Assembly (NCBI GenBank): GCA_921293015.1
Contig: OV121081.1
Coordinates: 56,259,877 to 56,323,876, forward strand
DNA: 64,000 bases
DNA from: Phorcus lineatus
Taxonomy: Eukaryota; Mollusca; Gastropoda; Trochida; Trochidae
Direction of reading: 5' to 3'
Part shown: positions 1,973-54,411 of the stretch, piece after piece
Layout: every line of letters starts with the position of its first letter
Position numbering within the stretch: position 1 is the stretch's first letter
Made by a program: the position numbers and the translations under genes
Notes under the pieces: generated by a model
Seen by the model: only the letters and a program-made list of their open reading frames with translations
Databases searched by the model: none
Told to the model about the DNA's origin: nothing

Positions 1973-3076
1973 CAGTGCTTCAGCCAGGCAGCGCCAATGC
2001 GCCATTCACGCAAAAAAATAAATATTGGCGTTGATTTTCAAATCTACTGCGAATGTATTGGCGCAAATAATTTAGAGCAAGTAATACTGAAATTAAGAAT
2101 CAATTGGTAAAAAGGCCAAACTCTGAAATATGATGTCAATGTCAGGTCTGAATTTAAGATGATCGATCTCAATTCTGTGTCTATAATTAGAGCAATAGTT
2201 TGTTTACTTACCAAAAAAACCGATCAATTCGGAATGGAATGGAATTTGTTTCGCGCATGCTCTATTGCTATCTTTGACCCAAATCCGATTACACACGCGA
2301 ACTGTCGACTTTCGTTTTGACTGAACGACATGAAACGAAGAATAATGGACTTCTTAAACGAAATAAATACTGTTTCGGAACAAAATGAAGAACATGCAAA
2401 CATATACAAGTGAAATCGAAGTAAACTCGACTGAAACGAATCATCCACCGAACATCGGTACGTCAGATCAATCGACTTCGAGTTCAGTAAACAAAATCAA
2501 AATATTTGAACATTGTTTTCAAACGTCTTTGTTGCGTACGTATTCTTGGCTGAAATATGAATATGGATTAATGTACTGAAAAACGTGGTTAGACGTGGTG
2601 ATGAAGAAAGAAAATTCTTTCACAACTGGGACAAGTTGTTTTAGAACATGGACACTGTGCTAATAACCGACGTGCGTTGAGAGAAATCGGTATGAAAGAT
2701 AACTTTACTGTTGCTTCTAAAAATTTTTTTTTTTGAATGATGCATTTATTTCTGCCATGAGACGTGTTTATTATTTGGGATCGAGTATCCACTGTGAAAT
2801 ACAAATCTTTGATAGACTTTTGTAAACTACAAGGTTGTGATAGATTACAATAGGCCTACATGGAATCAGGCAAAAATTCTACATGTATTCACTTCATAAG
2901 AAGTAATAAGTAGACCATTACACTGACAGCATATAGATGTAAGTACAATCATTTATTAAAATTGTTAAGTTTAAACAGTTCATGAACATTGGCACATTAC
3001 GATCACACATTGGCACACTTTTCTAAAAGTGGTGTGCCAAGTGGCACATAAAAGCAAAATCCTGGCTGAAGCACTG
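1973..3076. mobile_element. hAT-like DNA transposon, non-autonomous
   Basis: Terminal inverted repeats start CAGTGCTTCAGCCAGG at 1973 and end with the exact reverse complement at 3076. The same six bases, cagtaa, lie directly outside both ends (1967-1972 and 3077-3082). hAT elements normally start CAGTG or similar, carry subterminal tggcacac-type motifs (here near 2990-3045), and make 8-bp target duplications; only six bases match here. The 1.1-kb length is far too short for a full transposase, and only an N-terminal fragment is visible inside. Confidence 0.75.
2330..2680 (+). pseudogene. hAT transposase zinc-finger remnant
   Basis: Inside the hAT-like element. An ATG at 2330 opens MKRRIMDFLNEINTV, which resembles the starts of hAT-type zinc-finger transposases, but it stops after about 37 codons. 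A second frame then gives FQTSLLRTYSWLKYEYGLMY, followed after a stop by KENSFTTGTSCFRTW. This order (WLKY..G.MY, then N.F..G...FR) matches the BED/TTF-type zinc finger region at the start of hAT-family transposases, but the zinc-binding cysteines are lost. At least two frame breaks. Assignment rests on motif memory, not on a search. Confidence 0.55.
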
Positions 3077-3175
3077 CAGTAATTCAGCCAGTCAGCATGG
3101 TTTGCCACCAGCTTGACTCGGCAGGTGAACAGTTAATATGTAAACTGATTCTAATATGAAGTGCTATGTGTTCAG

Positions 3176-6100
3176 GTATATTTAAGTTCCTGGATGAGTA
3201 CTACGAGAGTCTGAAATCAGAGTCCCATCAGGAGGAGGACAGGAAGGAGTCAACAACTCTCTCACGGCCTGAGGTCAGAATATCTGTCTCGGAGAAGCGC
3301 GGCAGGGAGAAGAGGTGTGTTTATGTACAGTCAATGACACAAACAAGTGTAATGAAGCTGGATGTTTTTATACAAGTTGAAACCTTTCATACTTGCATGG
3401 CTTGAAATCAAGCTCATAAATAACTGTCTCTGATTTCTTAAAGATGACGGAGTTAAGACATTGAGATTGTATATGCCCATATATGTTGTGTTTTTGAACC
3501 ATTGGATTATAAGGTTTTGTTTTAAACACAAGGTTCTAGAGTTGTTCAGATGATTTATATGTTGCACAAGATATATATTTGTGTAAGAGATCCAAAAGAG
3601 ATGACGTTTTTGTTGCTTTGAAAGGCTTCTGGCATTTGTATTCTTGTCAGGTCATAGATGTATTACTGCTAAAGTATACTTAATGTTATTGATTTTTCAA
3701 AATTCACTTAGTTACAAAAGAGCATATTGTCACGCATTTAGCTTCTTTTTAACTTTGATATATATAAGCATAAATATTTAATTTCTACTTCTAATAATAT
3801 TGTTATACTTTAACATAAAATATATATGGTGTTGATATTTGTTTCAAGATCAGAAACTGATGGAAGGATTTCAAGAAAATCAATACTGAAAACCCCAGAT
3901 AAACCTATAATGGTAAGTTATCCCTTGTGTTGCCTTCTCAGTCGATAATACTTACTATCATTGTTAAATTGTGACCTAAGAACCGTGATTGAATTACAGG
4001 AGCATGAATCAGCAGAAGACCTGAGATTACAGAACACTCTCGGCCGATATGAGAAGAAGTCCGCCCAGGACCTCCGAGCTGATGTCCACTTCATTAGACC
4101 TAGAAGGTACTGATAGTTTTCCCTATATTTCCTTAGTTAGTTTGGAACATGCAGGTTGCTCCATTGGACCACATCAGGTACTCTCAATCTCCTGCAAAAT
4201 AGGATCTAAGTTATACCTATTCTTTGATTAGTTCATCCAAGTTCTCTTTTCTAAAGAATTCCTACTATCCTGCACAATTGAAGCTTATATTTGCTGGGAA
4301 CATGCAGGTTACTTCATTGGAACACATGAAGTACTCTCATTCTACCGCATAAAAAGGAGCTTACTTACCATGCCGTTTCCTATTCCTTGATTAGTAAGTT
4401 CCTCAAATCTCTCTAAAGAATTCCAAATTATCCTGCATGATTGAAAATAATGTTCAAAGTCGCTTGTTATTTCAATATTAGTTCCTCAGTTAACAGTATG
4501 TCTGCTAACATGACTCTCATATCCTCAGATGTCTTGCTTCATTTCAGAATTGCTTCTATTGAAAGAATTATGCCTGGTAATAGCCATTACCAAACACAAG
4601 TTCATCAAGAAATTGTCCTTCTTAAACTTCTATTGATGAGTTGGTCAGTTGTTGCATATACAATCTATTGAATATAAGTATATAGATCTATAGACTTCTT
4701 GTCATCATTGATAATTAGACATTAATAGAGATATATGTTACCTGTTGTACAGTACACCACAACTCGTTGAGTACCAGTCTACATTGCCTAGCAACCGACA
4801 CTCATGCATGCCTACGGACATGCGATACAAGTTTGGGGAGATTCTGGAAGACAAGGCCCTGAACCTGCATGATATTCTGGAACAGATGGATAGGTAGGTG
4901 GCAACATTCTCTAAACTTGATGCACAAAAGAGTCTTTCACTATCACTTCCATCCATGGCCACCTAGGACTTTATGCTTCAAGTTAGCATTTTCCTGATGT
5001 GGTGATATTGTTAAAGGTTTCATGATATAAGAGCATGGGTGATCAAAGATGCAACTACTGACGTTTTCATGAATATAACAAAATAAAGGAACAAAGAATG
5101 GTATTTCTATTGAACCCTGCAGCAACAACATGCAATGCGAGTAGGTATATTTCCAGTTAACAGCTTGAAGGAGAGAGCATGAATATAACAAAAAAAAGCC
5201 GTTATAGCTTTCTGTTCTTTGGAGAGAGTAAGATTAAATGGAACTAGAATTGACACCTTACTTTGATAGATTTGAAAAGTTATGTTAATTGTTGTTTATT
5301 ACATGTTCACAAGTAGAATGAAGACAGTGAAGTTCATGAGCAAGAAATCACTTCTTATCCTCTTCTCAATTCAAAACTATAAGGCCAGTTTCAACTGTGA
5401 GGTTCATTTTCGGGTGCAGATAACCAAGAAAAGTTAGAAGCAGATGAATCAGAAACTTTAGCAAAAATATAATTTTATGATTAATAAGGCAGCAGATGAT
5501 GAAGATTTATTCCATGTTACTGTATAATATAGAAGCCTTCAATACAGTCTTAATTTCAGAAAGTCTAAGACTGTTCCAGTACCCTATGAGAAATATGAGA
5601 ATGCAAGACAAAGAAAATTACATCAAGAAAATATTAAATGAAATTTCTTCCATTGATTAAATTCAGTCCACACATAGTACTACGACTATCTTGTATGATG
5701 TACACTGCAGAGAGCGCATGATCAAGTGTAGCAGCAAGCTGGTGGGACTAAAGGCTGATGGACACAGCTTTCACCGCACGCTGCGGCAGATGAGGGAATC
5801 AACGGACAGAATCCTCCACAAACCAATCGACCAGCTCAAGAAGGAGAAGGAGAAGTCGATGAAGAGAAACTGGTTGGTTGAACTTTTAGATGCCTGTATT
5901 ATTGATAGAGGGTACTTAATAGTGTTTATTCTATAGAATGTCATAGATACGTCATGTCATGTCTCCTGATAATACTGACAGTTTGTTTCTTGCAAAATCA
6001 ACTCCTCCATCAACTCCTCCATCACACTCCATCATTCTGAAAGTTTTAGACAAGCTTTATAATATGTCAGTGATGTAAATTGAAATTTTGAAAATTAAGA

Positions 6101-9100
6101 ATTTAGGAGCACTTAAGTCTTTCATTACAGGATGTGGATAAACTTTAACCTTACCTCTTATTTTTTTATTGTTATTGTCTCATCGTCAGATTTTTCAAAT
6201 AAATCATGATTTTTGCTTTTTGAATATTCCTCGCCATCTTACAAAAGTTTTTACCCTTGCCATAACGTTAACTTGTATTGGTCAGTGATAACCCTTGGAT
6301 ACCTTACATGTGTTTTCCTTATCTTTAGGCAATTAAAATGATTACAAATTTCATACCTTGTGATATTGATGTTGGCTTAAGATAAGTTCCTGAAAACCTT
6401 TTCTTTTTACCCTAACATTTGATTGGTCATTCGTAGGGTGGTCATGTTTTATCTATTTCATTCCTTGAAATTTGAATATGAAGAATTTGATTTAACTGAA
6501 AGGGATGGAGGGGGAGGGGGGTCGCAGAATGGTTATGATCACTAATTGTTTTTTTTTTGGTGTCATTTTTGTAAAACAGGCAACTAATCATAATTACTCT
6601 GATTTGACTGATAACACGAATAGAGGAGTAAGGACGGGTTGTGGGCAGCTCATATTAATTTTTTTTTAATAAACTGTTGATTAATTATAATTATGTTAAT
6701 TTGGCAAAAAAATAATACCTTTGTTGTATAAGGCAAAAAAATTGCACATTTGGCAACTAGACTTTGTTTGGTATTGTTACATTTCATCCCCTGTGTGAAT
6801 GACTCCTTTAGTATAATAGTTGAGAAAACAGAGGCTTTTCTTTCCTATTCCAGGTTCACAAACCTTCGAGACAGTATTCCTTTGGAGATTAGAGAAGGTC
6901 TGTGGTACTACAAGGCTATTCTGGCAAAGCTTGAGAGATTTGGAATGGTAAGAGTTATTTTGATCATGGATATTGAAATTTGTGTCATGAAGTTTTTCCA
7001 TTTTTCAAACTGTACAATGATGTCATAGCAGTATCCTGGAAATGTTATGACAACTAATGGTTTGCCTTCAGTAGGTTTAGATTTAGGGTGTGCTTTGATG
7101 TGGTTTTAATTTTGTAATGAAACTTAGAATATGTTGTAATGCTTTCCTTGTCTTGAATTGAGTGTGACTTTAATGTGTGTTTAGAATTAGTAGATTTTAA
7201 TCATCTTTCTTTGAAGAAGTGTTGTTAAAATCCCCCAAAAGTCATAATTTGTTCTCTAATTTTAATTGGAAATGATATAAAGCAATAAAATGCTCCTAAG
7301 ATATCTGAATTCATCTTATTTGAGGTAAAAAATCAATATCTTAATTGGTATTGTTGACACATTTTGTAATTATCAAAATAATTTGGACATTTTGAAAGAC
7401 TTTTCAGCATCCCAGATTATGTAATAATTGTGAAATGCTTAAAGAGAATGTGTTGACAAGCTAGATAACATGTTTAGTTCAGACAGAAACATTTGAATTG
7501 ATTCAGGTGGTTTACAGATTACATTTTTGTTTCTCTAGAGTATTGTTTACTTTATTTCAAATAGGTTCGAACGGATTTGGACTCTGTACGTTTTAGATAC
7601 ATTTTTATTTCAACTCACACATTTTTGGGTCTTTTTAAAATCTTTGCTTTAGAAATATTGGTGATATGGTTCCTTTCCTCAAAACCAATTCATTGAAACC
7701 TAGCTTTCACCTTTTAGTTCCAAACATATTTGTAACTTAGAATATAGATTTAGGCATTTCATACCTTTTCCTCATAACATTTTTATAATGTGTTTAAAGC
7801 TATTAAAGCTGGTTATAATTCCATATGAAAACTTTTTTTTTTTTTTCTGTTTTTTTCAAGCAAATTGTATCCTTTTTTGTGCTCATCCCATTTATTAATG
7901 GTTTACTTATTAATCATTGTTTAACATTTTAATCAATTATTTGCTTAATATATTTCAACTAAAATAATCATCTAACCAGCATATTCATAACCAATATTGT
8001 GCTTGTCCCCCGTGCAGCCTAAGAGTAGACGAAAGTCCACCAAAGTGAATTTAAACCAGGTACATTATGTCACACAGCATTATCGGCACAGTTGACAGTT
8101 GTCCATTGAATGCACCACTGTTCAGAGTTTGACAACAATCCCTTTGTTTGTATTTTGTCTCATTTGCTTGTATGTAAGGGACACTTACAAGGATTCCCTT
8201 CAGCTCTTGAGTCCACCATAACTTAACCTTAACCCTTAACCAAATCAAAGATGTCAATGATCATTGATTTTTCCAAAGGGCTAGTAAAGATAGTAAAAAC
8301 AAAACATGGTGTCATTATCAGGTGAAACTTAACTACAATCAAAACATCATATCTAATATCTGATATATAAATATGAATGGTATATCAATGATGAGCACTG
8401 AACTAAACCCCTAAAGCACTGATCAGAGACCCATGTGAAGTCCCTCATTTACAAAATGATATTCCCTTATTCTATAGCAGTGATGGTTTGGAACTTGTGA
8501 TGACGAAGGAATAAGCTAATAATCTCAAATCTATTCGTTAAGAAGAAGTTTTTATCAAGTTACGAAGAAATTTTGCTTTTTTTCTGTAATAAACATCTAA
8601 ATGTCCCACAGTGATGACATATATAGTTTCCTTAAAAATCCTTACCTTCTTTATTCATACTCTGGATATGTGTAATATTTATGATAAACTTGAAAATTTA
8701 TATGCCATCAGGAACTTATGATATCATTTTTATTCTAATTTGATATTTAGGTTCTTTTGATGTTGAGTTGAAATGAAATTATATTGAATTCTCACTATTT
8801 ATTTCAAGCACCTGGTAGTTACTGATTCCACATTGACACTACCACATAGTTCTAGAGTAAAATTTGCACAAACTCATACACTGCACGTAAGATATGTTCA
8901 CAAGTTAACATGTTGCATTGCTTTACAATAATATTGTTTTCCCCGTCAAACATGAACCTTATGTAAAAATGATTTGCTTGTCATTTGGTGAGTATAACAA
9001 AAATGTTATTTTTTTGACTACCATAGTATTGAACGATTACATTGAATTATCACATGTCATTTTCTTGACAATTTTTACATCAGAATGGGTCCTTTGTATT

Positions 9101-23733: not shown

Positions 23734-23738
23734 GTGAC

Positions 23739-24041
23739 TGTAATGCCTCCTACGGGCCTTCCTTTCACCTTTTACGTCCGCTTCTTTCAATTTATTGCAT
23801 TTCTCAATCCCTTCCGCTTTAACCTCATTCTAAGAGTTATCTCCCTTCTATGTTCAGCTTTCCGTTTCCGCTCAAAAACACGTTTTCTGTCAGCCATTAC
23901 TACTCGGCTCCACATTCTCTCACCGGCGCAAACTAATGGTTGCAAAGGTTTTTTACCGTTTCTATAATACTGCATGGAAATGAAAGCTGGGAAGTAAAAA
24001 CGTTTGAAGTGGACAAACATCGTTTTTATTGTGTCAGCATA
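23739..24041 (+). repeat. 5' LTR of the BEL/Pao element
   Basis: 303 bp, starting TGTAATGCCTCC and ending GTCAGCATA. It differs from the 3' LTR by two substitutions that I can see and by one run-length difference in a TTTATTG tract. Confidence 0.93.
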
Positions 24042-24157
24042 GTAAAAAACCTGCATCCTATCGTCTGTGTTGGCGAAATACAACGTGAGTTTTTCAAACA
24101 TAACAATGACAATTATTGCCAATCTGTGAAATTTTATGAACTGTGAATCTACCTACA

Positions 24158-25108
24158 ATGTCTTCTCGTACAAAGAAGTTAACGGACAAAGGTTATGAAC
24201 TTTTTGAAGATAAAGTTAGGGATTATCTCTACAAATTTAACAGGCAAGCCGCCTTACTTGACAGTGTACTAGTTGACTCTATTCCTCAAGGAGATAATGC
24301 TGAACACCTCCAGGATTTTCGTAGAGATATTGAAAGACATTATAATTTATTCAAGGAAGTTTGCTCAGAGTTTGTCACCTACCTACAACGCGTGGGAACC
24401 GAGGAAAGTATTAAATTGGAAGTTTCATGCAATAACAGAGCAGATTCTATGCTAAACAAAGTTCAAGTTGTTCTCAAGGAAATTAACGACAGACGGCGGT
24501 CTGTTCCCTCAGATCCCGGCAATTGGGACGCTGTTTCAGTTCATCGAAACACTGCATGTACAACTTCAAGTACTCTTTTGATAAGGCAACGAGCAAAGGC
24601 AGAGACAGCTAGGGTTAGACTAAAGTTTGCGGAGAAAGAGGCTGAGCTATTGAAGAAACGCGCAGATATAGAGAGCTCAATCAAGTTACTTACGTCACAA
24701 CGAGAACTCGACGAAGCAGAGGCAGAGCTCATCGTCATTGAAGAGGTCACCTGTACAGATCACATCACAAGTACACCTTGTAGAAACCAAGTGACCAACA
24801 CCAATGAAAAACAGACGTATGAGAGACCACCCAAATGGATTGATACAGAGCACAGAACAATAAGTGATCCTACTGTACCTATTAAAACAGGCAATCAAGA
24901 AACCGAGCCATTAAATGCTTCAGCTCCACCCTTTGTGCCATCCACCAACACACAGACAAACATCTGTACAGAATTATCCAACTTTCTTGTAAAACGGGAT
25001 TTGCACATATCACGACTTCACAAATTCAGTGATAAACCTGAACATTTCTCTGTGTGGAAGAGTAGTTTTGTTGACATCATGCGTGACCTTAATGCAGCCC
25101 CAAGATAG
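24158..25108 (+). pseudogene. BEL/Pao gag N-terminal part
   Basis: Starts at the first ATG after the 5' LTR and reads on to an amber stop at 25106-25108. It contains a long charged, helical stretch (for example LRLKFAEKEAELLKKRADI-like repeats of K, E and A near residues 145-195), then a Ser/Thr/Pro-rich linker and RLHKFSDKPEHFSVWKSSF, the DUF1759-type gag core of Pao elements. The next 69 codons are open in the same frame, so the stop is a single in-frame lesion and not a natural end of gag. Confidence 0.85.
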
Positions 25109-26761
25109 GAAATAGATCTTCTACTGAAATGGCTTGGACCGAAATCAAGCATTCAAGCTACGAATATCTATGCATCACATTCTCATGACTCCTATCATGC
25201 TCTACAGAAAATCTGGCAACGACTGGAAGAGAGGTATGCATGTCAAGAACTAATTGAATCTTCCCTGAAAAACAAACTCTGTAGCTTTCCGAAAATCAGC
25301 AATCGGGATCCGAACATGCTCTATGAGCTGGCTGACCTGGCTGCAGAGATGGAGTCGTTAAAGGACAACACAAGGTACTCTACCCTCCTAGCCTACTACG
25401 ACTCATCGGCAGGAGTTACACCCATCATCAACAAACTTCCTCATTCTCTTCAGGAAAAGTGGACTAACGAGGCAGCGTCATACAAAGATAGGTACTGTGT
25501 CCCTTACCCACCTTTTTCTGTCTTCACGGATTTCCTAAACAGACAGGCAAGAATCAGGAACGATCCAAGCTTCATGTATGATCAACAGCCCACAACTCAA
25601 ACCATGCGAATGAAAGCATCTGATGGTTATCGGTCAAGCAACTTGAGATTTTCATCAAAGAAGACTGAAGTCAACAACGATTCCACAAACACTCAAGCAC
25701 CTAGATACTGTCCGTTCCACAATACAGCCGAGGGTCATACCTTAAACTACTGCAGAGGCTTCCGTCGTCTACCGCTCCGTGAACGAAGAGACTTTTTACT
25801 CAAGTACAAGATCTGCACCAAATGTTGCATGACAGACAAACATTCTTCCAAGGAGTGCAAGGTGAAATTCTCATGTTACTTCTGTGGGAGTGAGACCCAC
25901 TCTACAGCCATGCACGCCAGTTTAGATGGAGATTCTAAGCCGGACAAGTCTACCCCTTCCCCTAAGAAGCACGGAGGGGAGAGCTCCTCTACAGTGAGGT
26001 CTACTGCTACAACAACTTGTACCCAGGTATGTGAAGGCAGTGTCAGCGGCAAATCCTGTGCAAAAACTCTTCTCGTAAGAGTGTTTCGTGAGAACCACCC
26101 CGAACACTCTATCCTCACTTATGCTGTTCTGGATGACCAGAGCAACAGATCGCTTGCTCGTAGTGACTTTTTCGACAAGTTTAACGAAGATGGTGATCCC
26201 ATGGAGTATTCCCTCTCATCATGTAATGGTTGTGTAACCATGTCTGGAAGACAAGCGGCAGATTATGTCATTCAGGCCTTGGACGAGTCTGCCACACTTA
26301 ACCTCCCTCCTCTCATAGAATGCAACATGATCCCTAACATGCGAAACGAGATCCCTACTCCAGAAGCTGCAAGACACCACCCTCACTTAAGAGAAATTGC
26401 AGACTACATCACACCTATACACCAAAATGCTGATATTCTACTGCTCATAGGACGCGACCTACTCAGCGCTCACCATGTGCTGGATCAGCGTACAGGCCCA
26501 CAAGAAGCCCCATTTGCTCAGAAGCTCAGGTTAGGCTGGGCAATAATAGGTGAAGTCTGTCTCGGAAAGGTACACCGTCCAGATACTGTTACAGTGAACA
26601 AGGTACAGGTGCTTGGTGACGGTCGCCCAACAATTATGGAACCATGCCCCAACAACTTCCATGTCAGCCATTGCTCCAAACCCATCGATACCGATGCCTT
26701 ATTCCAGAGGACAAGTGAGGATGAAAACGTTGCCATGTCTGTCGAAGAGTCAAACTCATGA
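25109..26761 (+). pseudogene. BEL/Pao gag C-terminal part and protease
   Basis: Same frame as the preceding gag after one amber stop. It includes the remaining gag core, a Cys/His-rich segment with CPFHNTAEGHTLNYC, CTKCCMTDKHSSKEC and CYFCGSETHSTAMH (zinc-knuckle-like groups of BEL/Pao), and a DUF1758-like aspartic protease region with YAVLDDQSNRSLARSDFF. The usual D-S/T-G triad is written DDQ here. The frame ends at a TGA overlapping the next ATG, where it shifts into the reverse transcriptase. Confidence 0.85.
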
Positions 26762-27514
26762 ATTCCCAGTTTGTCAGGTCTGACGACGGCTATTGGACTG
26801 CTCCACTTCCCTTTCGTACCAACCGACCCCCTCTTCCATTCAACAGACCACAAGCAGTACAAAGAGCCAACCTATTACACTCAGGTCTAATGAAGGATAA
26901 CGCAAAGAGGGATCACATGGTTGCTTTCATGTCTTCAGATCATCGAAAGGGGACACGCTGAAGTAGCTCCACCAGTTGACAAGGGCAAGGAGTGCTGGTA
27001 CTTGCCACTCTTCGGCGTTTACAATGACAAGAAGCCAGGTCAAATCCGTGGCGTTTTTGACTCTTCCGCAACTTTCAAGGGAGTCTCCTTGAACAGTGTC
27101 CTCATGACTGGCCCTGATCTAACCAACAGTCTATTAGGTGTACTCCTCAGGTTTTGGATGGAAGCTGTAGCTGTGACTGCCGACATCGAACAGATGTTCT
27201 ACTGCTTCAAGGTCCAGGAAAGCCACCGGGACTACCTCCGTTTCCTCTGGTACCGCAACAACGATCCAAGTCAGGACATCACTGAGTATAGAATGACAGC
27301 ACATGTCTTCGGGAAATCCCCGTGTCCAGCCGTTGCCACATACGGTCTCAGGAGATCGGTAGAGTCTGCGAACCCAACAGTCAAACAATTTGTTGAAAGG
27401 GACTTTTACGTCGATGATGCACTAGTCTCAACCCCTACAGAGAACGATGCTATCAACCTAATACAGTCGACCCAGTCTGCCCTTCAAGGTCGGTGGAAAC
27501 ATAAGGCTCCATAA
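26758..27514 (+). pseudogene. BEL/Pao reverse transcriptase
   Basis: Two overlapping frames (26758-26961 and 26921-27514) make up the polymerase fingers and palm. Recognised parts in order: CWYLPLFGVYND, IRGVFDSSATFKG, LNSVLMTGPDL, the catalytic VTADIEQMFY, RMTAHVFGKSPCPAVATYGL and the YVDD box in FYVDDALVS. One frameshift lies near 26925-26960 and another near 27485, so no full enzyme can be made. Confidence 0.9.
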
Positions 27515-27539
27515 GATTACCTCAAATCGACAAGCAGTC

Positions 27540-28342
27540 TTGGACTCATTTGACAGCTTTGACCTCGCCAAAGATATGAAGGATTTGGACTTAAATGTTG
27601 ACAAACCCCCTCCTCAGCGAAGCCTCGGTCTCTACTGGAATATTGCAGAAGATTTACTTTTCAAGTCAGCAGTGAAAGAAAACCATTCACTAGAAGAGGA
27701 GTACTGTCAACCATTAACAGTCTCTATGACCCACTTGGTATAGTGGCCCCCGTCGTTGTCAAAGGAAAACTTCTTCTCAGAGGGTTAATGTCTACAACGG
27801 CAGGATGGGACGAACAATTACCTGTTCAATATCTTCCACAGTGGCAGAAGTGGTGCGACTCCCTGAAGGGCCTTGAAAAAGTCATGATCCCTCGACCCTA
27901 TTCAGACTCATCATTCTCGGCGTCTCCAAATAAGACTGTACACATCTTCTGCGACGCTTCAAAGGAACCTATCAGCGCTGTTGCCTTCATCAAAATTGAC
28001 AGCGTAAGTGGCCCAAGCAACGTCAGCTTTGTTTTGGGCAAGACCAGAGTGGCCCCTCAACATGGACATACCATTCCAAGGTTAGAACTGTGTGCGGCGG
28101 TTCTATCTGTGGATGTGGCTGATATACTTGTGAAACAACTCAATCTCCACAGAGACAGTTTCAACTTCTACTCCGACTGCAAAGTCGTCCTTGGTTACAT
28201 ACACAATGAGAAGAGACGCTTTCACGTGTATGTTGCCAATCGTACAGATCGGATACGACGATTGTCTCAGCCCTCTCAATGGCGGCATGTACCAACAGAC
28301 GTCAACCCAGCAGATGAAGCCACAAGACTGTCTTCCACATGA
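27540..28342 (+). pseudogene. BEL/Pao RT connection and RNase H-like domain
   Basis: Frames 27540-27743 and 27743-28342 carry the region after the polymerase: SLGLYWNI, YDPLGIV-type sequence at the frame break, then VHIFCDASKEPISAVAF, TRVAPQHGHTIPRLELCAAV and the FYSDCKVVLGYI and NPADEATRL segments. These are the Pao RNase H-like landmarks with the first Asp in FCDAS and a later Asp in YSDCK. Frameshift at about 27740. Confidence 0.88.
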
Positions 28343-28951
28343 CACTACCAAAACAGCCTATGGTTGACCGGACCTGAATTCTTACGCAGTGACGAGACAG
28401 TGAACACACATGACATGTTTCCTCTCATTGATCCAGATTGTGACAAGGAACTGAAGCCAGACGTTCATTCTGCCAAAACTGCAGTGAGTCACTCACCCCA
28501 GGGAACACTGTTCTCTGATCGTTTCGCCAGATTTTCAAGCTGGAGCAGACTTATCAAGACTTTCTCCCACCTGAAACACATCGCAAGAGCTTACGCCAAA
28601 TCAAGCGACTCACGTGACGGCTGGCACCTATGCAAGGAGTCCGGAACCACTACAGCTCTAAGGAACTCCGAAGTATTTATCCTTAAAGTTGTCCAGAATG
28701 AATCATATGAAGAGGAAATTACAGCTCTACAACAAGGCTTGCCTCTTCCAGCAAAGAGCTCCATACTTCCACTATCGCCTACTCTTGATCAACTGGGACT
28801 ACTGAGAGTTGGTGGACGCCTGACACACAGCAAGCTTTCCACCGTTGAGGCACACCCGATCATTATTCCTAAGAAGCACCACATTGCTCTCCTCCTCATC
28901 CGACACTTTCACCAGAGAGTGAGACACCAAGGTCCTAATGAAGCCCAATGA
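28343..28951 (+). pseudogene. BEL/Pao integrase N-terminal part, core deleted
   Basis: Same frame as the RNase H-like part after an in-frame stop at 28340-28342. It ends in the integrase zinc-binding area: LGLLRVGGRLTHSKL, HPIIIPKKHHIALLLIRHFH and RVRHQGPNEAQ, then stop. The two-Cys half of the HHCC finger and the whole DDE catalytic core are absent; the 3' LTR follows 245 bases later. Confidence 0.85.
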
Positions 28952-29195
28952 GATTAACTCTGCCAGGAACTTAAACTTCGATCTTAAACTCTAAATAACA
29001 TGAACTTTAACAATCATGAACACTATCTCATCAACGTGTGGTTTTCAGTCGACATGATCCGATGATGACTTCCCTCTGATCATGTCTCACTTATGAACTT
29101 TCTATACTCATTTAATAACATTCTTAATTTTTTCAACTTGCGTGTTTACATATTTCATCAGCCGTGGTGATTTCTGACAGAAATCAGGAGGGGAG

Positions 29196-29514
29196 TGTAA
29201 TGCCTCCTACGGGTCTTCCTTTCACCTTTTACGTCCGCTTCTTTCAATTTATTGCATTTCTCAATCCCTTCCGCTTTAACCTCATTCTAAGAGTTATCTC
29301 CCTTCTATGTTCAGCTTTCCGTTTCCGCTCAAAAACACGTTTTCTGTCAGCCATTACTACTCGGCTCCACATTCTCTCACCGGCGCAAACTAATGGTTGC
29401 AAAGGTTTTTTACCGTTTTTATAATACTGCATGGAAATGAAAGCTGGGAAGTAAAAACGTTTGAAGTGGACAAACATCGTTTGTTTATTGTTTATTGTTT
29501 ATTGTGTCAGCATA
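29196..29514 (+). repeat. 3' LTR of the BEL/Pao element
   Basis: 319 bp, nearly identical to the 5' LTR, longer because a tttattg unit near 29481-29503 is repeated. Confidence 0.93.
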
Positions 29515-32703: not shown

Positions 32704-32874
32704 CTGATTAAAATCGATTGTGTTCCGAGGAATAAAAGTTTGAAATGATTGTGGTCTACATGTGGCTGCTGTCAGACTGTGTAGAGAGGAAAGCCCAGAC
32801 AAAACGAGTTCGAATCTTGATAAAGTAAAAAAATTCAAACTTTTATTCCTCGGAACACGATCGATTTTAATCAG
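32704..32874. repeat. Long hairpin with tRNA B-box-like loop
   Basis: Two 41-bp arms, 32704-32744 and 32834-32874, are reverse complements with one mismatch (cgattgtgttccgaggaata in the left arm, tattcctcggaacacgatcg in the right). The 89-base loop includes gagttcgaatc at 32808-32818; gttcgaatc fits the RNA polymerase III B-box consensus GWTCRANNC. No good A-box is seen at the expected distance. It may be a tRNA-derived SINE between inverted copies of something else, or a foldback element. Confidence 0.7.
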
Positions 32875-46287: not shown

Positions 46288-46570
46288 GACTGAGTGTGTA
46301 GCAATGAATATGAACATTGAATACATCAGGTACATACAGGTATATATCGTCAAGAACCACTGTCATAAAAGGTGTTACCCAACTTAATCCTTAATTAGAT
46401 CTTTACCACAAATAAGCCAGCAGGGGTAAATTGATAATTGGTGTCAAACAATTCTAATAATATTGTATGGATTTATATGTATCGGTGATTAGTCTTTGCT
46501 AAGTATAGGGCATTAGAACAATACAATGGGCGTCATGACAAATATTACATTTTATATGCGTTCAATTTTG

Positions 46571-46875
46571 AAAAGTATATAAAATGTTCATATTGCTGTT
46601 CCTTATGAAAAGTATATTAAATGTTCATATTGCTGTTCCTTATGAAAAGTATATATATAAAATGTTCATATTGCTGTTCTTTATGAAAAGGTTCATATTG
46701 CTGTTCCTTATGAAAAGTATATAAAATGTTCATATTGCTGTTCCTTATGAAAAGTATATAACATGTTCATATTGCCGTTCCTTATGAAAAGTATATAAAA
46801 TGTTCATATTGCTGTTCCTTATGAAAAGTATATAAAATGTTCATATTGCTGTTCCTTATGAAAAGTATATAAAAT
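46571..46875. repeat. 37-bp minisatellite upstream of the metalloprotease
   Basis: Eight units of about 37 bp, each with aaaagtatataaaatg followed by ttcatattgctgttccttat. One unit is cut to about 26 bp and another has extra TA pairs. The array starts about 285 bp before the ATG of the metalloprotease gene, so it is in or near the promoter. Every full unit holds a TATA-like tatataaaa. Confidence 0.95.
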
Positions 46876-46879
46876 GGAT

Positions 46880-48213: not shown

Positions 48214-48402
48214 ATGTGCGTGCATCTTCCTACGCAAAGCTTAACTATTGCCAGTCTCGAACTGTCCAAGTTAACCCTTGCTGCCGACATAAGACTTTCC
48301 TGTGCTGATACCAGCGCCCCCTCTGGCGATTTTTAGTAATCTCCAGTTACCTCCCTTACCCTAACCAATCGGTGACGCCGTATCATTTGCGTGATAATCA
48401 AA

Positions 48403-48492
48403 ATGGCTGCACCCATAGAAAGTGACCTGATCGATCAGATTACTAAGAAGTTTGCATTGCAAACCTTTCAAACAAGAAGATTCAGTTTATAA
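48403..48492 (+). CDS. Short ORF with strong start context in the MULE-like element
   Basis: ATG in tcaaaATGGct context, reading MAAPIESDLIDQITKKF and ending after 29 codons at a TAA. About 35 bases upstream is a CCAAT box (aaccaatcgg) and 75-85 bases upstream a CTCF-like agcgccccctctggcg. Looks like a promoter with a first coding segment. A short peptide at the other end of the element starts similarly. May be a remnant of an ancestral element gene or of a captured host exon. Confidence 0.35.
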   Translation: MAAPIESDLIDQITKKFALQTFQTRRFSL

Positions 48493-49612
48493 ATGTATTG
48501 ATGGACGGAAAAAATGTTTTTGTTGTTATTAGGACCAGTTTTGGTAAATAAATAACATATGACTGCGCCCCTTATATTTTTTCAAATGGAAGTATGTAGG
48601 CCCATTTATCGTGGTCGTTACCATTATATAATTGTATTTTTTCATCAAATAAGTACAGTAGCTGAAAAAATTTCCTGGAAAATATGTGAAAATCAAATAT
48701 ATAGGGGAGAAATATCTTTAGACATACAATGAATAGTATACAGGCCCGTAGCACCAATTTCGAGAGTGGGGGGCTGAAATTAGAGATTTGCTAGCTCATT
48801 GGGGGGGGGGGGGTTAGACTACAACGTCGGTGAGACTAAATACAGTTTTTATTCTCAATCTGCAGAAAAGGGTCAGATGCCTCAAGAAACTTAAAATATT
48901 CTATTTTTTCATTCAAACATTGAAATAAAGAGCAAAAAAAGTCGTTTTTACCCCTAAAATACGCGTACGTACAAGCCAAACGGGAAACATTTCATGGAGA
49001 GAGAATAATTTTTATATCAAGGCACATACGTAGTAACCAAAGTAATATTTTCAAAAATGAAAATGACCCAATCAAATCAGTGAAAATGGAAGTAAATATA
49101 ACAATTGTTTTACTTTTTAAAATTTTTTTTATTGACGACATGATATTTAAATGGTACACGTCAACATACCTGGTTTTTGACTGCAAGAAGTAAAGTTTTA
49201 TGAGAGTAACGTTTACTACCGCGACACAACGAGGTCACAGGCTACTACATTTCGAGTGTTATGACATCGCGAGATGTTCAAATTTTATCGGTTCATTTAT
49301 GTAAAATTTAATCAATGTTTCAGTTCAACGGGTATTCAATAAAGTTTTTGCAAGCACAAAAGATAAAACAATTGTACGATGACAGGAAATAAAGTCTTGC
49401 CGGGCGTAGTGCATCGAGTCGGTGCTTCAAATCAGGGTCAAGTTTATCGATTTTGATTAGTTTACCGAAGCAATTTAAGAATAAATTCTTTGACAGGCCG
49501 CTGTCCGCTACAGGGTTGTAGTAAAATAATAACGCAAATTGACTATAACCATAAATGAACTTGAATATATTGTTCATCGCTTTGGAGGCGGCACTTTCTC
49601 TTTACAAATCTT

Positions 49613-49645
49613 TCAGTCGACGGACTGCGACATGGGCGCATCCAT
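49613..49645 (-). CDS. Inward-facing short ORF at the right end of the MULE-like element
   Basis: On the - strand, ATG at 49645 in acaaacATGGa context, reading MDAPMSQSVD and stop. A CCAAT box (tccaatcag) lies about 53 bases upstream. Distance to the inner end of the right inverted repeat is 84 bases; at the left end the matching distance is 97. The likeness to MAAPIESDL at the left end suggests that both ends once shared a longer repeat. Confidence 0.3.
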   Translation of the reverse strand: MDAPMSQSVD

Positions 49646-49821
49646 GTTTGTTCGAGTGCCCGGATTTAGCTTTTGCTAGGAGCTTTCTGATTGGACTATC
49701 TAATTCCTTTGCAGTGAGTTAGAGAGCTAGCACAGGAAAGTCGTATGTCGGCAGCAAGGGTTAACTTGGACAGTTCGAGACTGGCAATAGTTAAACTTTG
49801 CGTAGGAAGATGATGTGCGTG

Positions 49822-51876: not shown

Positions 51877-52039
51877 TGTGGTGTATGTAAAGACTGCAGT
51901 CTAAGGGAGATAACTCTAAGGTAACTGTGTGTCACGCTCTCTCATCATCACGTGCGCTGCTGAACAAGCGGCACGTTCATGTAATGCACATGTAATAATG
52001 AATCCCCTCACGTTCTCTCTTCTACTGACGAACACGACA
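51877..52039 (+). repeat. 5' LTR of the deleted gypsy element
   Basis: 163 bp, TGTGGTGTATG to ACACGACA. It differs from the 3' LTR mainly by a short indel near the aataatgaatcccctc/aataaagattcccctc stretch. Confidence 0.92.
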
Positions 52040-52270
52040 GTAGCGACGAGGATTATTTCGAAGAAGTTCCACGCACGAAACGGGATATTGCAGTCATTAT
52101 AGTGATTTAATTGACGGTATTGTCACGAAAATAGGAGACAAATGGTTGAACAGTTACGAGACAAACCGAACATAATTGCATTTACAAAGCAATTTAAACG
52201 ATTTTATACGGACAATTGTTGGGATACCAATTTCTTTTACGAGCATTCCTGACAAAAGTGAGTTTTAACG

Positions 52271-52929
52271 ATGGCTACTGCACGAAATTCGTTTGAAGTT
52301 TTCAACACCCGTGATGGAGAAATTGAATGTTATTTGGAACGGTTAGGGGAATATCTCATTGCAAACGACTTGCCAGATGAAGCAGACAATCGAGCAAAAC
52401 GGAAAAGTACGCTGTTAAGTGCTATTGGGGGCGAGACATACAAAGTTTTAAAGGATTTGTGTTTTCCTCAAAAACCTAACGAAAAAACCTATGGTCAGTT
52501 GTGTGCTTTGTTGAAGGGACATTTCGCTCCAAAACGAATTGTTACGGCTGAGAGATTTAAGTTTCACAACACAAAACAACAACCAGGACAATCAATAACG
52601 AGTTATGCAGCACATTTGAAGAAAATGGCTACACATTGTGGTTTTGTTGGTGAAACATTGATGGAAAGTTTGAGAGATAGATTTATTTGTGGATTGAGTT
52701 CAACGCAAACTTCTAGCAAGGGACTACACTTTCCAACAAGCATTAGATACAGCTTTGGTGGAGGAGATGGCCAATGTGAATGTGCGTCAGATGAGCAATG
52801 GTCATCAGTCCACTAGTGGAAACCATGGAAACCATGGAGGTGCAGTGTACAAAGTGGGACAGAGGGGTAAAGGTCCCCAACCTTCATTCAAACCTTGTTT
52901 CAGGTGTGGATTTGAAAATCACTTAACTT
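52271..52929 (+). pseudogene. Gypsy gag remnant
   Basis: ATG at 52271, then FEVFNTRDGEIECYLERLGE, LLSAIGGETYKVLKDL, TYGQLCALLKGHFAPKR and AERFKFHNTKQQPGQS, the usual gag (retrotransposon capsid) order. A frameshift near 52710 moves the rest into another frame: TFQQALDTALVEEM, then CFRCGFENH, the first half of a zinc knuckle. A stop follows and the second half (the final Cys) is deleted. Confidence 0.88.
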
Positions 52930-53813
52930 AACTTCCAGGCAAAATTTCTCCCAAACATTTCAACCATTATTCATCCATTGAACCTGTTGCTAGGAAACAA
53001 GGAATGGCAATGGACAAAAGAGTGTGAGATGGCTTTTAGAAAAGCAAAGGATGCAGTGACGTCTGAGAGACTGTTAGCACACTACGACCCTGAACTTCCT
53101 TTGTTTATGGCAGCTGACGCCTCACCTTACGGCTTAGGCGCAACCATAATGCAGGCTTACCAAGACGGATCGAAACGGCCTGTGGCTTACGCTTCAAGAA
53201 GTCTCAACAAACATGAGAAAGGTTATGGTCAGCTTGACAAGGAGGCACTAGCTATAATTTTTGGACTAAAACGGTTCAGAAATTATCTGTACGACGAAAT
53301 TTCACTATCTTGACGGATCACAAACCTCTCATTAGGATATTGGGACCAAAGATAGCGATCCCAACGTTGGCTGCACAAAGACTACAGAGATGGGCTCTGT
53401 TGTTGTCTGCTTTTAGTTATGATATCCAGTTCATTTCCTCACGACAGAACGCACTGGCAGATGCATTGTCACGGCTTCCGCTCGCAGGCACAGGGGAAGA
53501 ATCTGATCCGATGTACCAAGTGGAAGAAAAACGCCTCAACAGCTTACCAATAACCTGCAGAGAAATTGCTCAAGCGACAAAGACAGATCCTATTCTGTCT
53601 CGAGTGCTACACTTCACTCGCACGGGATGGCCATCACATATTGACGAAACTCTCAAGCCCTACTTCTACAGAAGGATGGAGTTATCTGTGGAGCAGGACT
53701 GTGTCTTGATAGGACTGAGAGTAGTGATACCAAGCAAGCATCAGGATGAGATTTTGGATGAACTTCATGTTGCTCACCCGGGTATCGTCCGCATGAAGGA
53801 AATTGCTTGAAGT
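52930..53813 (+). pseudogene. Gypsy RT end, RNase H and integrase zinc finger
   Basis: Starts within the polymerase thumb (LLLGNKEWQWTKECEMAF), then RNase H with LAHYDPELPLFMAADASPYG and YASRSLNKHEKGYGQLDKEA. A frameshift near 53310 leads to MTDHKPLIRIL, LQRWALLLSAFSYDIQFI and NALADALSRLPL. The integrase zinc-finger start ELHVAHPGIVRMKE then meets a stop at 53808-53810. Confidence 0.9.
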
Positions 53814-54003
53814 TTTGTTTGGTGGCCCAACATCGACTTTGACATTGACTCAACAGTTAAGCAGTGTAAAAGTTGTCAACAAACGAGAAGTACTCCCAGT
53901 GTAGCTCCTCTGACCCCATGGGAGTGGCCAGGAATTCCATGGAGCAGAATTCATATTGACTTTGCAACGAAAGACAACCGCGACTATCTGACGCTCACTC
54001 AAA
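53814..54003 (+). pseudogene. Gypsy integrase fragment
   Basis: After the stop the frame continues FVWWPNIDFDIDSTVKQC and CQQTRSTP (the CxxC half of the zinc finger), then WSRIHIDFATKDN with the first catalytic Asp. The core is cut off here and joins non-coding sequence before the 3' LTR. Confidence 0.85.
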
Positions 54004-54242
54004 GTGGCCGGAAAGTTTCAAAGTGTCAAAGGAGAGTTTCATTTTTATTCAGTGTTATTGAGAAGATAAACTCAGTTGGAAAGGAGACTTTAAAAGGGTT
54101 AATTTAAGATGTTCTAAGATAAGTTTATTATGTCTTCAACAGCATGAAATTGCACGGTTTCAGTTGGTAAAGGGATTTGAGTTATGTAATGTTTATGTTT
54201 AAAAGTTTTTAAAGGGACCATGTTCATCTAAGGAGAGAGGAG

Positions 54243-54411
54243 TGTGGTGTATGTAAAGACTGCAGTCTAAGGGAGATAACTCTAAGGTAACTGTGTGTCA
54301 CGCTCTCTCATCATCACGTGCGCTGCTGAACAAGCGGCACGTTCATGTAATGCACATGTAATAAAGATTCCCCTCATTCAACACGTCTCTCTTCTACTGA
54401 CGAACACGACA
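54243..54411 (+). repeat. 3' LTR of the deleted gypsy element
   Basis: 169 bp; first 120 bases appear identical to the 5' LTR. Includes an aataaa at 54360-54365 that could serve as the element's polyadenylation signal. Confidence 0.92.

Follow-up and report, generated by a model that had tools for sequence, protein, structure and literature searches.

The window analysed here, a stretch of 64,000 nucleotides from Phorcus lineatus contig OV121081.1, contains a 1590-bp element with terminal inverted repeats (TIRs) at positions 48223-49812 (Table 1). The two arms are 84 nt each and match at 82 of 84 positions (98% complementary, two mismatches), and the element is bounded by an exact 9-bp target-site duplication (TSD), ATGTGCGTG, which is absent elsewhere in the window on either strand. 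Both the repeats with their two mismatches and the exact duplication were measured as the original prediction had claimed, and no longer inverted repeat was listed within positions 30000-64000 of the window (minimum 40 nt, seed 14). Searches of Pfam with six X-masked frames of the element found no transposase, including no MULE transposase, in agreement with the absence noted in that prediction, and found no helicase, the only matches being two unrelated weak ones (E = 0.07 and 0.13). The whole element had no match among phage records, the TIR pattern was not found in viral contigs, and a search of Rfam at gathering scores gave nothing in the window. The interior of the element includes a G-run-rich stretch (48742-48830, acaggcccgtagc...gggggggggg), which resembles a nested or expanded repeat. 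The remainder of the window holds a BEL/Pao-type LTR element with broken coding frames (23736-29491; 299-bp direct repeats, 98% alike), an LTR retrotransposon remnant in which 134-bp direct repeats, 99% alike, enclose gag-like and RNase H-like frames (51877-54376), a tandem array with 8.5 copies of a 37-bp unit (46569-46876), and a 41-bp inverted repeat (32704-32874; 98% complementary, 89 bp apart), which is possibly a small foldback element.

Table 1. Features of the element and its flanks (positions in the window).
Feature	Position	Strand	Evidence or occurrence
Left TSD copy, ATGTGCGTG	48214..48222	.	Sequence
Left 84-bp TIR, starts CATCTTCC	48223..48306	+	Same left end in 39/39 fetched copies
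Left CCAAT box, candidate promoter element	48365..48369	+	CCAAT in corresponding stretch of 39/39 elements checked
RecQ-type helicase N-terminal coding remnant, broken	48403..48587	+	In 37/39 fetched copies
Internal sequence without recognisable protein	48588..49612	.	
Right inward ATG, short frame MDAPMSQSVD	49613..49645	-	ATGGATGCGCCCATG in 36/39 elements
Right CCAAT box, inward	49690..49694	-	In 38/39 elements
Right 84-bp TIR	49729..49812	-	Inverted-repeat comparison, paired copies
Right TSD copy	49813..49821	.	Sequence

On the inner side of each arm, a CCAAT box is followed by an inward-facing ATG in strong context (RNNATGG; 48403 on the + strand and 49645 on the - strand), as the original prediction had described. 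When 18,250 stretches of 130 bp were taken from the window (both strands, step 7), CCAAT followed by RNNATGG within 80 bp was seen in 1.1% of them; its occurrence at both ends is therefore unusual, at about 1 in 10,000 if the ends are independent, for a pattern that was named post hoc. The CCAAT boxes are regarded as candidate promoter elements. We also compared the contexts of the two ATGs as a longer inverted repeat, and this candidate was rejected, their likeness being within chance (545 of 1964 random pairs had a score as high).

The 107-bp left end of the element was used as a query against its own 958-Mb genome, and the best 40 of 1251 first-look candidates, located on 15 contigs, were scored; from these, 39 places besides that of the window itself were fetched. 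Both ends were present in 38 of the 39 places, the exception being one copy (L014) without a clean right end, so that the structure recurs in the genome when it is checked with the TIR end as had been proposed. Among the 38 paired copies, the duplication was exact over 9 bp in 28, over 10 bp in two and over 8 bp in one, and was 9 bp with one mismatch in five; the last two have none in register, one of which (L046) shows by eye 10 bp with one mismatch. These counts of paired ends and exact duplications also leave only a negligible probability that we are dealing with chance inverted repeats without any mobile-element history. The first 19 paired copies are 95.2-99.6% identical to the majority sequence of the family, clustering around 99% and 96%, indicating that the family is young, with the reservation that the fetched copies are those closest to the left end of the window copy and the sample is thus tilted to the young part of the family. 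The window copy itself is 99.2% identical to the majority sequence. The family is recently active, and the element in the window, one of its many short copies, was inserted as a unit with duplication of 9 bp and is probably unable to move by itself.

The flanks of the 29 sites with an exact 9-bp duplication, window included, showed a palindromic preference of approximately TCAW-N9-WTGA, with TCAW preceding the duplication and WTGA following it. At these sites 93 of 174 consensus letters were matched, a figure somewhat inflated because the consensus was derived from the same sites; random draws from neighbouring DNA (n = 2000) matched 47.5 letters on average and 70 at most. The family has moved, with a preference for certain sites and with their duplication. 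In two copies on different contigs (L034 and L042) the 9-bp duplication, TCAGTGACC, is identical and so is the ACAT that precedes it, perhaps reflecting insertion into copies of one repeat.

The ATG at 48403 opens MAAPIESDLIDQITKK, the frame changes near 48454, and the reading then continues as FINVLMDGKNVFVVIRTSFGK, a stop and ITYDCAPYIFS, the stop (TAA, 48549-48551) lying directly after FGK of the ATP-binding loop. A read-through query was made with X placed at the uncertain residues, the X positions being chosen by us. Against the PDB, with matches listed to E = 10, it gave 15 sequences, each of them a helicase (by name, 10 Q1/Bloom/RecQ, three ATP-dependent DNA helicases and two RNA helicases); the best match was an ATP-dependent DNA helicase (E = 1.1e-4), with the best Q1-named sequence at 7e-4 and Bloom at 0.006. 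Against NCBIfam, the same query matched only three RecQ families, the best being recQ_fam (E = 3.9e-5, profile positions 4-50). The Pfam profile DEAD reached just E = 0.07-0.14 on the window fragment, which is noise here because unrelated frames reach 0.07 and 0.13. The single-frame pieces of the fragment had one chance match in the PDB (E = 2.7) and otherwise none, and the helicase piece had none in PHROGs.

Other copies extended this comparison. The majority sequence of the family, GKDVFVVIRTGFGK, is nearer to RecQ than the window copy. When the helicase start was searched genome-wide, 150 places of 808 candidates were scored, diverged sister families among them. Three sister copies (L049, L050 and L051; TIR identity 96, 95 and 87.5% over 80 bp) all have the helicase start, which in L050 and L051 lies in one natural frame. 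The sole NCBIfam match of these single-frame exons was recQ_fam, with E-values weak on their own (0.15 for L050 and 0.021 for L051), and all five PDB sequences listed for the L051 exon were Bloom helicase (E = 0.064-0.071, 36 residues ungapped). Furthermore, L051, with X at the stop, could be aligned without gaps across the ATP-binding loop with a RecQ-like gene from another locus of this genome (L048, see below), and none of 1000 shuffles was as good; when only the part beyond the stop was aligned, one of 1000 shuffles did as well. Judged by these similarities, the segment just inside the left end represents the beginning of a RecQ-type helicase reading frame, which is broken in the window. 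Across the 150 scored matches to this start, open frames were at most 136 aa and no autonomous copy was found. Many contigs of the genome also contain 64-69% matches to the helicase start over residues 15-61, their open frames being about 82 aa long, which apparently represent further short families sharing this start.

A splice donor at 48543/48544 (TTTTG/GTAAAT), which would make the stop after FGK intronic, was also considered; its motif, TTTTGGTAAA, was found in 35 of 39 elements. The codon at the stop position in 40 copies is TAA in 30, TTA in four and TGA in one, and the motif is missing in five. We dropped the donor because the helicase similarity continues past the stop and because of the copies with TTA, and the similar motif that follows the right ATG in 36 of 39 elements was dropped together with it.

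The element had originally been labelled MULE-like, which was a reasonable guess because MULEs have long TIRs and duplications of 8-11 bp, as in the copies examined here. According to PMC6446971, these two traits and the frequent uptake of host fragments are characteristic of MULEs, and a nonautonomous, Pack-MULE-like element with the captured start of a host RecQ-family gene would combine all three. The position of the helicase start speaks against such a capture: the start is equally placed behind the same TIR in the diverged sister copies, so that any capture would have to be old and common to the sisters, and its reading frame begins at its own ATG just ahead of the helicase domain. In addition, the TIRs of the paired copies start with CAT, in contrast to the conserved G/C in the first three TIR bases of most arthropod MULEs, a tendency and not a strict rule (PMC13359780). 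A MULE transposase was not found in the six X-masked frames of the element, an absence that is expected of any deletion derivative. We consider a MULE with a captured gene start quite unlikely. The MULE label is not supported by the sole recognisable coding remnant, which is RecQ-helicase-like, and the TSD length also fits AcademH; the capture of a host first exon, proposed together with the label, became less likely once the three diverged sister copies proved to have that start at the same place after the same TIR.

The original prediction had further suggested that the element retains a layout of two convergent genes. To this idea a search for the RecQ family in the same genome is relevant, in which 32 places of 367 candidates were scored and one locus, L048, was read. 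It has RecQ-like frames on the + strand (2908-5144) and an ORF with DUF6589 on the - strand (5277-7148), in convergent orientation, and the convergent region spans 2908-8148. The profile scores were 9.7e-22 for DEAD, 1.3e-40 for recQ_fam and 3.3e-49 for DUF6589 (Pfam), and the RecQ zinc-binding domain was below the cut-off (9.7e-4). RecQ matches of nearly equal strength lie on contigs C19, C11 and C7, two of them additional to L048, which suggests that the unit is repeated. A convergent layout therefore exists in this genome, at a separate locus where a RecQ-like gene faces a DUF6589 gene. For the element in the window, the start of the left gene was identified as described above, whereas the right-hand start, MDAPMSQSVD, had no similarity in the profile search nor, when right-hand peptides were compared with L048, at that locus. 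The convergent layout is thus plausible but unproven for the element itself.

DUF6589 is today a domain of unknown function, and we found no mention of it in the literature searched, including in connection with transposition. The arrangement at L048 suggests it as a candidate transposase, and the element may then belong, as a nonautonomous member, to a different or undescribed superfamily with a RecQ-type helicase and a 9-bp TSD, for example with a DUF6589 transposase. The convergent frames at L048, the suggested repetition of this unit and the silence of the searched literature on DUF6589 are all consistent with such a superfamily. Against it, L048 has no TIR in common with the window element, with which it shares DNA stretches of at most 32 nt (best E = 0.002), and the ends of L048 itself were not found within 10 kb, the best inverted match being at the level of shuffled sequence. 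Moreover, DUF6589 may be the AcademH transposase under its Pfam name, and if so, the separate superfamily folds into the AcademH explanation. We regard a separate superfamily as unlikely.

The AcademH lineage of Academ DNA transposons reportedly goes back to Kojima in 2020. According to PMC10045372, AcademH encodes a helicase and makes duplications of 9 or 10 bp, those of AcademX are 3 or 4 bp, and the lengths are related to the helicase and nuclease of the two; RecQ helicase is listed as Academ cargo in PMC3627910. A RecQ-type remnant together with 9- or 10-bp duplications favours AcademH, and the element is probably an AcademH-type DNA transposon that is internally deleted and nonautonomous. 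We file it as AcademH-like and not as a proven member, since neither a transposase nor an autonomous copy bearing these 84-bp ends was found among the fetched copies and the helicase-start matches, and since AcademH is taken here from citing descriptions. The same helicase cargo occurs in KolobokH, which encodes a RecQ helicase and is reported only from fungi (PMC9587614). A KolobokH-like origin is most improbable, because Kolobok elements have TTAA duplications and 5'-RR termini, and the present copies have varied duplications, mostly of 9 bp, and 5'-CA termini.

If the element is of AcademH type, the helicase segment would be a leftover of the helicase gene of an autonomous parent. The inward ATG on the right possibly marks the start of the second gene of this parent, which would probably be the transposase, and the inward CCAAT/ATG starts may be leftovers of its two convergent promoters. 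An autonomous relative would provide, in trans, a transposase that binds the common TIRs and mobilises the copies, presumably in a cut-and-paste mode, with insertion at TCAW-N9-WTGA-like sites that leaves duplications of 9-10 bp. As a more specific and tentative proposal, which we think rather doubtful as a whole, the parent may have been a convergent two-gene transposon with a RecQ-type helicase at one end and a DUF6589 transposase at the other, and its mobile short copies may keep both inward promoters and start codons, each insertion seeding two facing transcripts.

The cargo and the duplication length move an element that looks like a MULE toward a group of helicase-encoding transposons, the coding remnant pointing toward Academ transposons that encode a helicase and away from plant-like Mutator elements. 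The family provides a young, many-copy example of palindromic target preference, and DUF6589 gains a testable identity as a partner, perhaps the transposase, of RecQ-encoding transposons.

Compared with known systems, the element is similar to MULEs, including MuDR and Pack-MULEs, in the duplication length of 8-11 bp, the long TIRs and the inward starts at both ends, and differs from them in its RecQ-like coding remnant, in the TIR that begins with CAT and in that no MULE transposase was seen. RAG-like transposons make 5-bp duplications. They have a convergent two-gene plan (PMC7204232), and their cargo differs from that of the element. KolobokH has a RecQ helicase in common with the element, and is set apart by TTAA, the 5'-RR ends and the reports of it from fungi only. 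With AcademH, set against the element by description, the 9- or 10-bp TSD and the TIRs are alike, and the RecQ-type helicase start is a probable further likeness. The element is unlike AcademH in that no Academ DDE transposase was seen in it with Pfam profiles, in its helicase, which is a broken N-terminal start recognised by recQ_fam when read through with chosen X and more weakly in single-frame sisters, and in its length of about 1.6 kb, compared with a mean of 5565 bp for the curated Academ of bivalves, in which Academ is well represented (PMC10294476).
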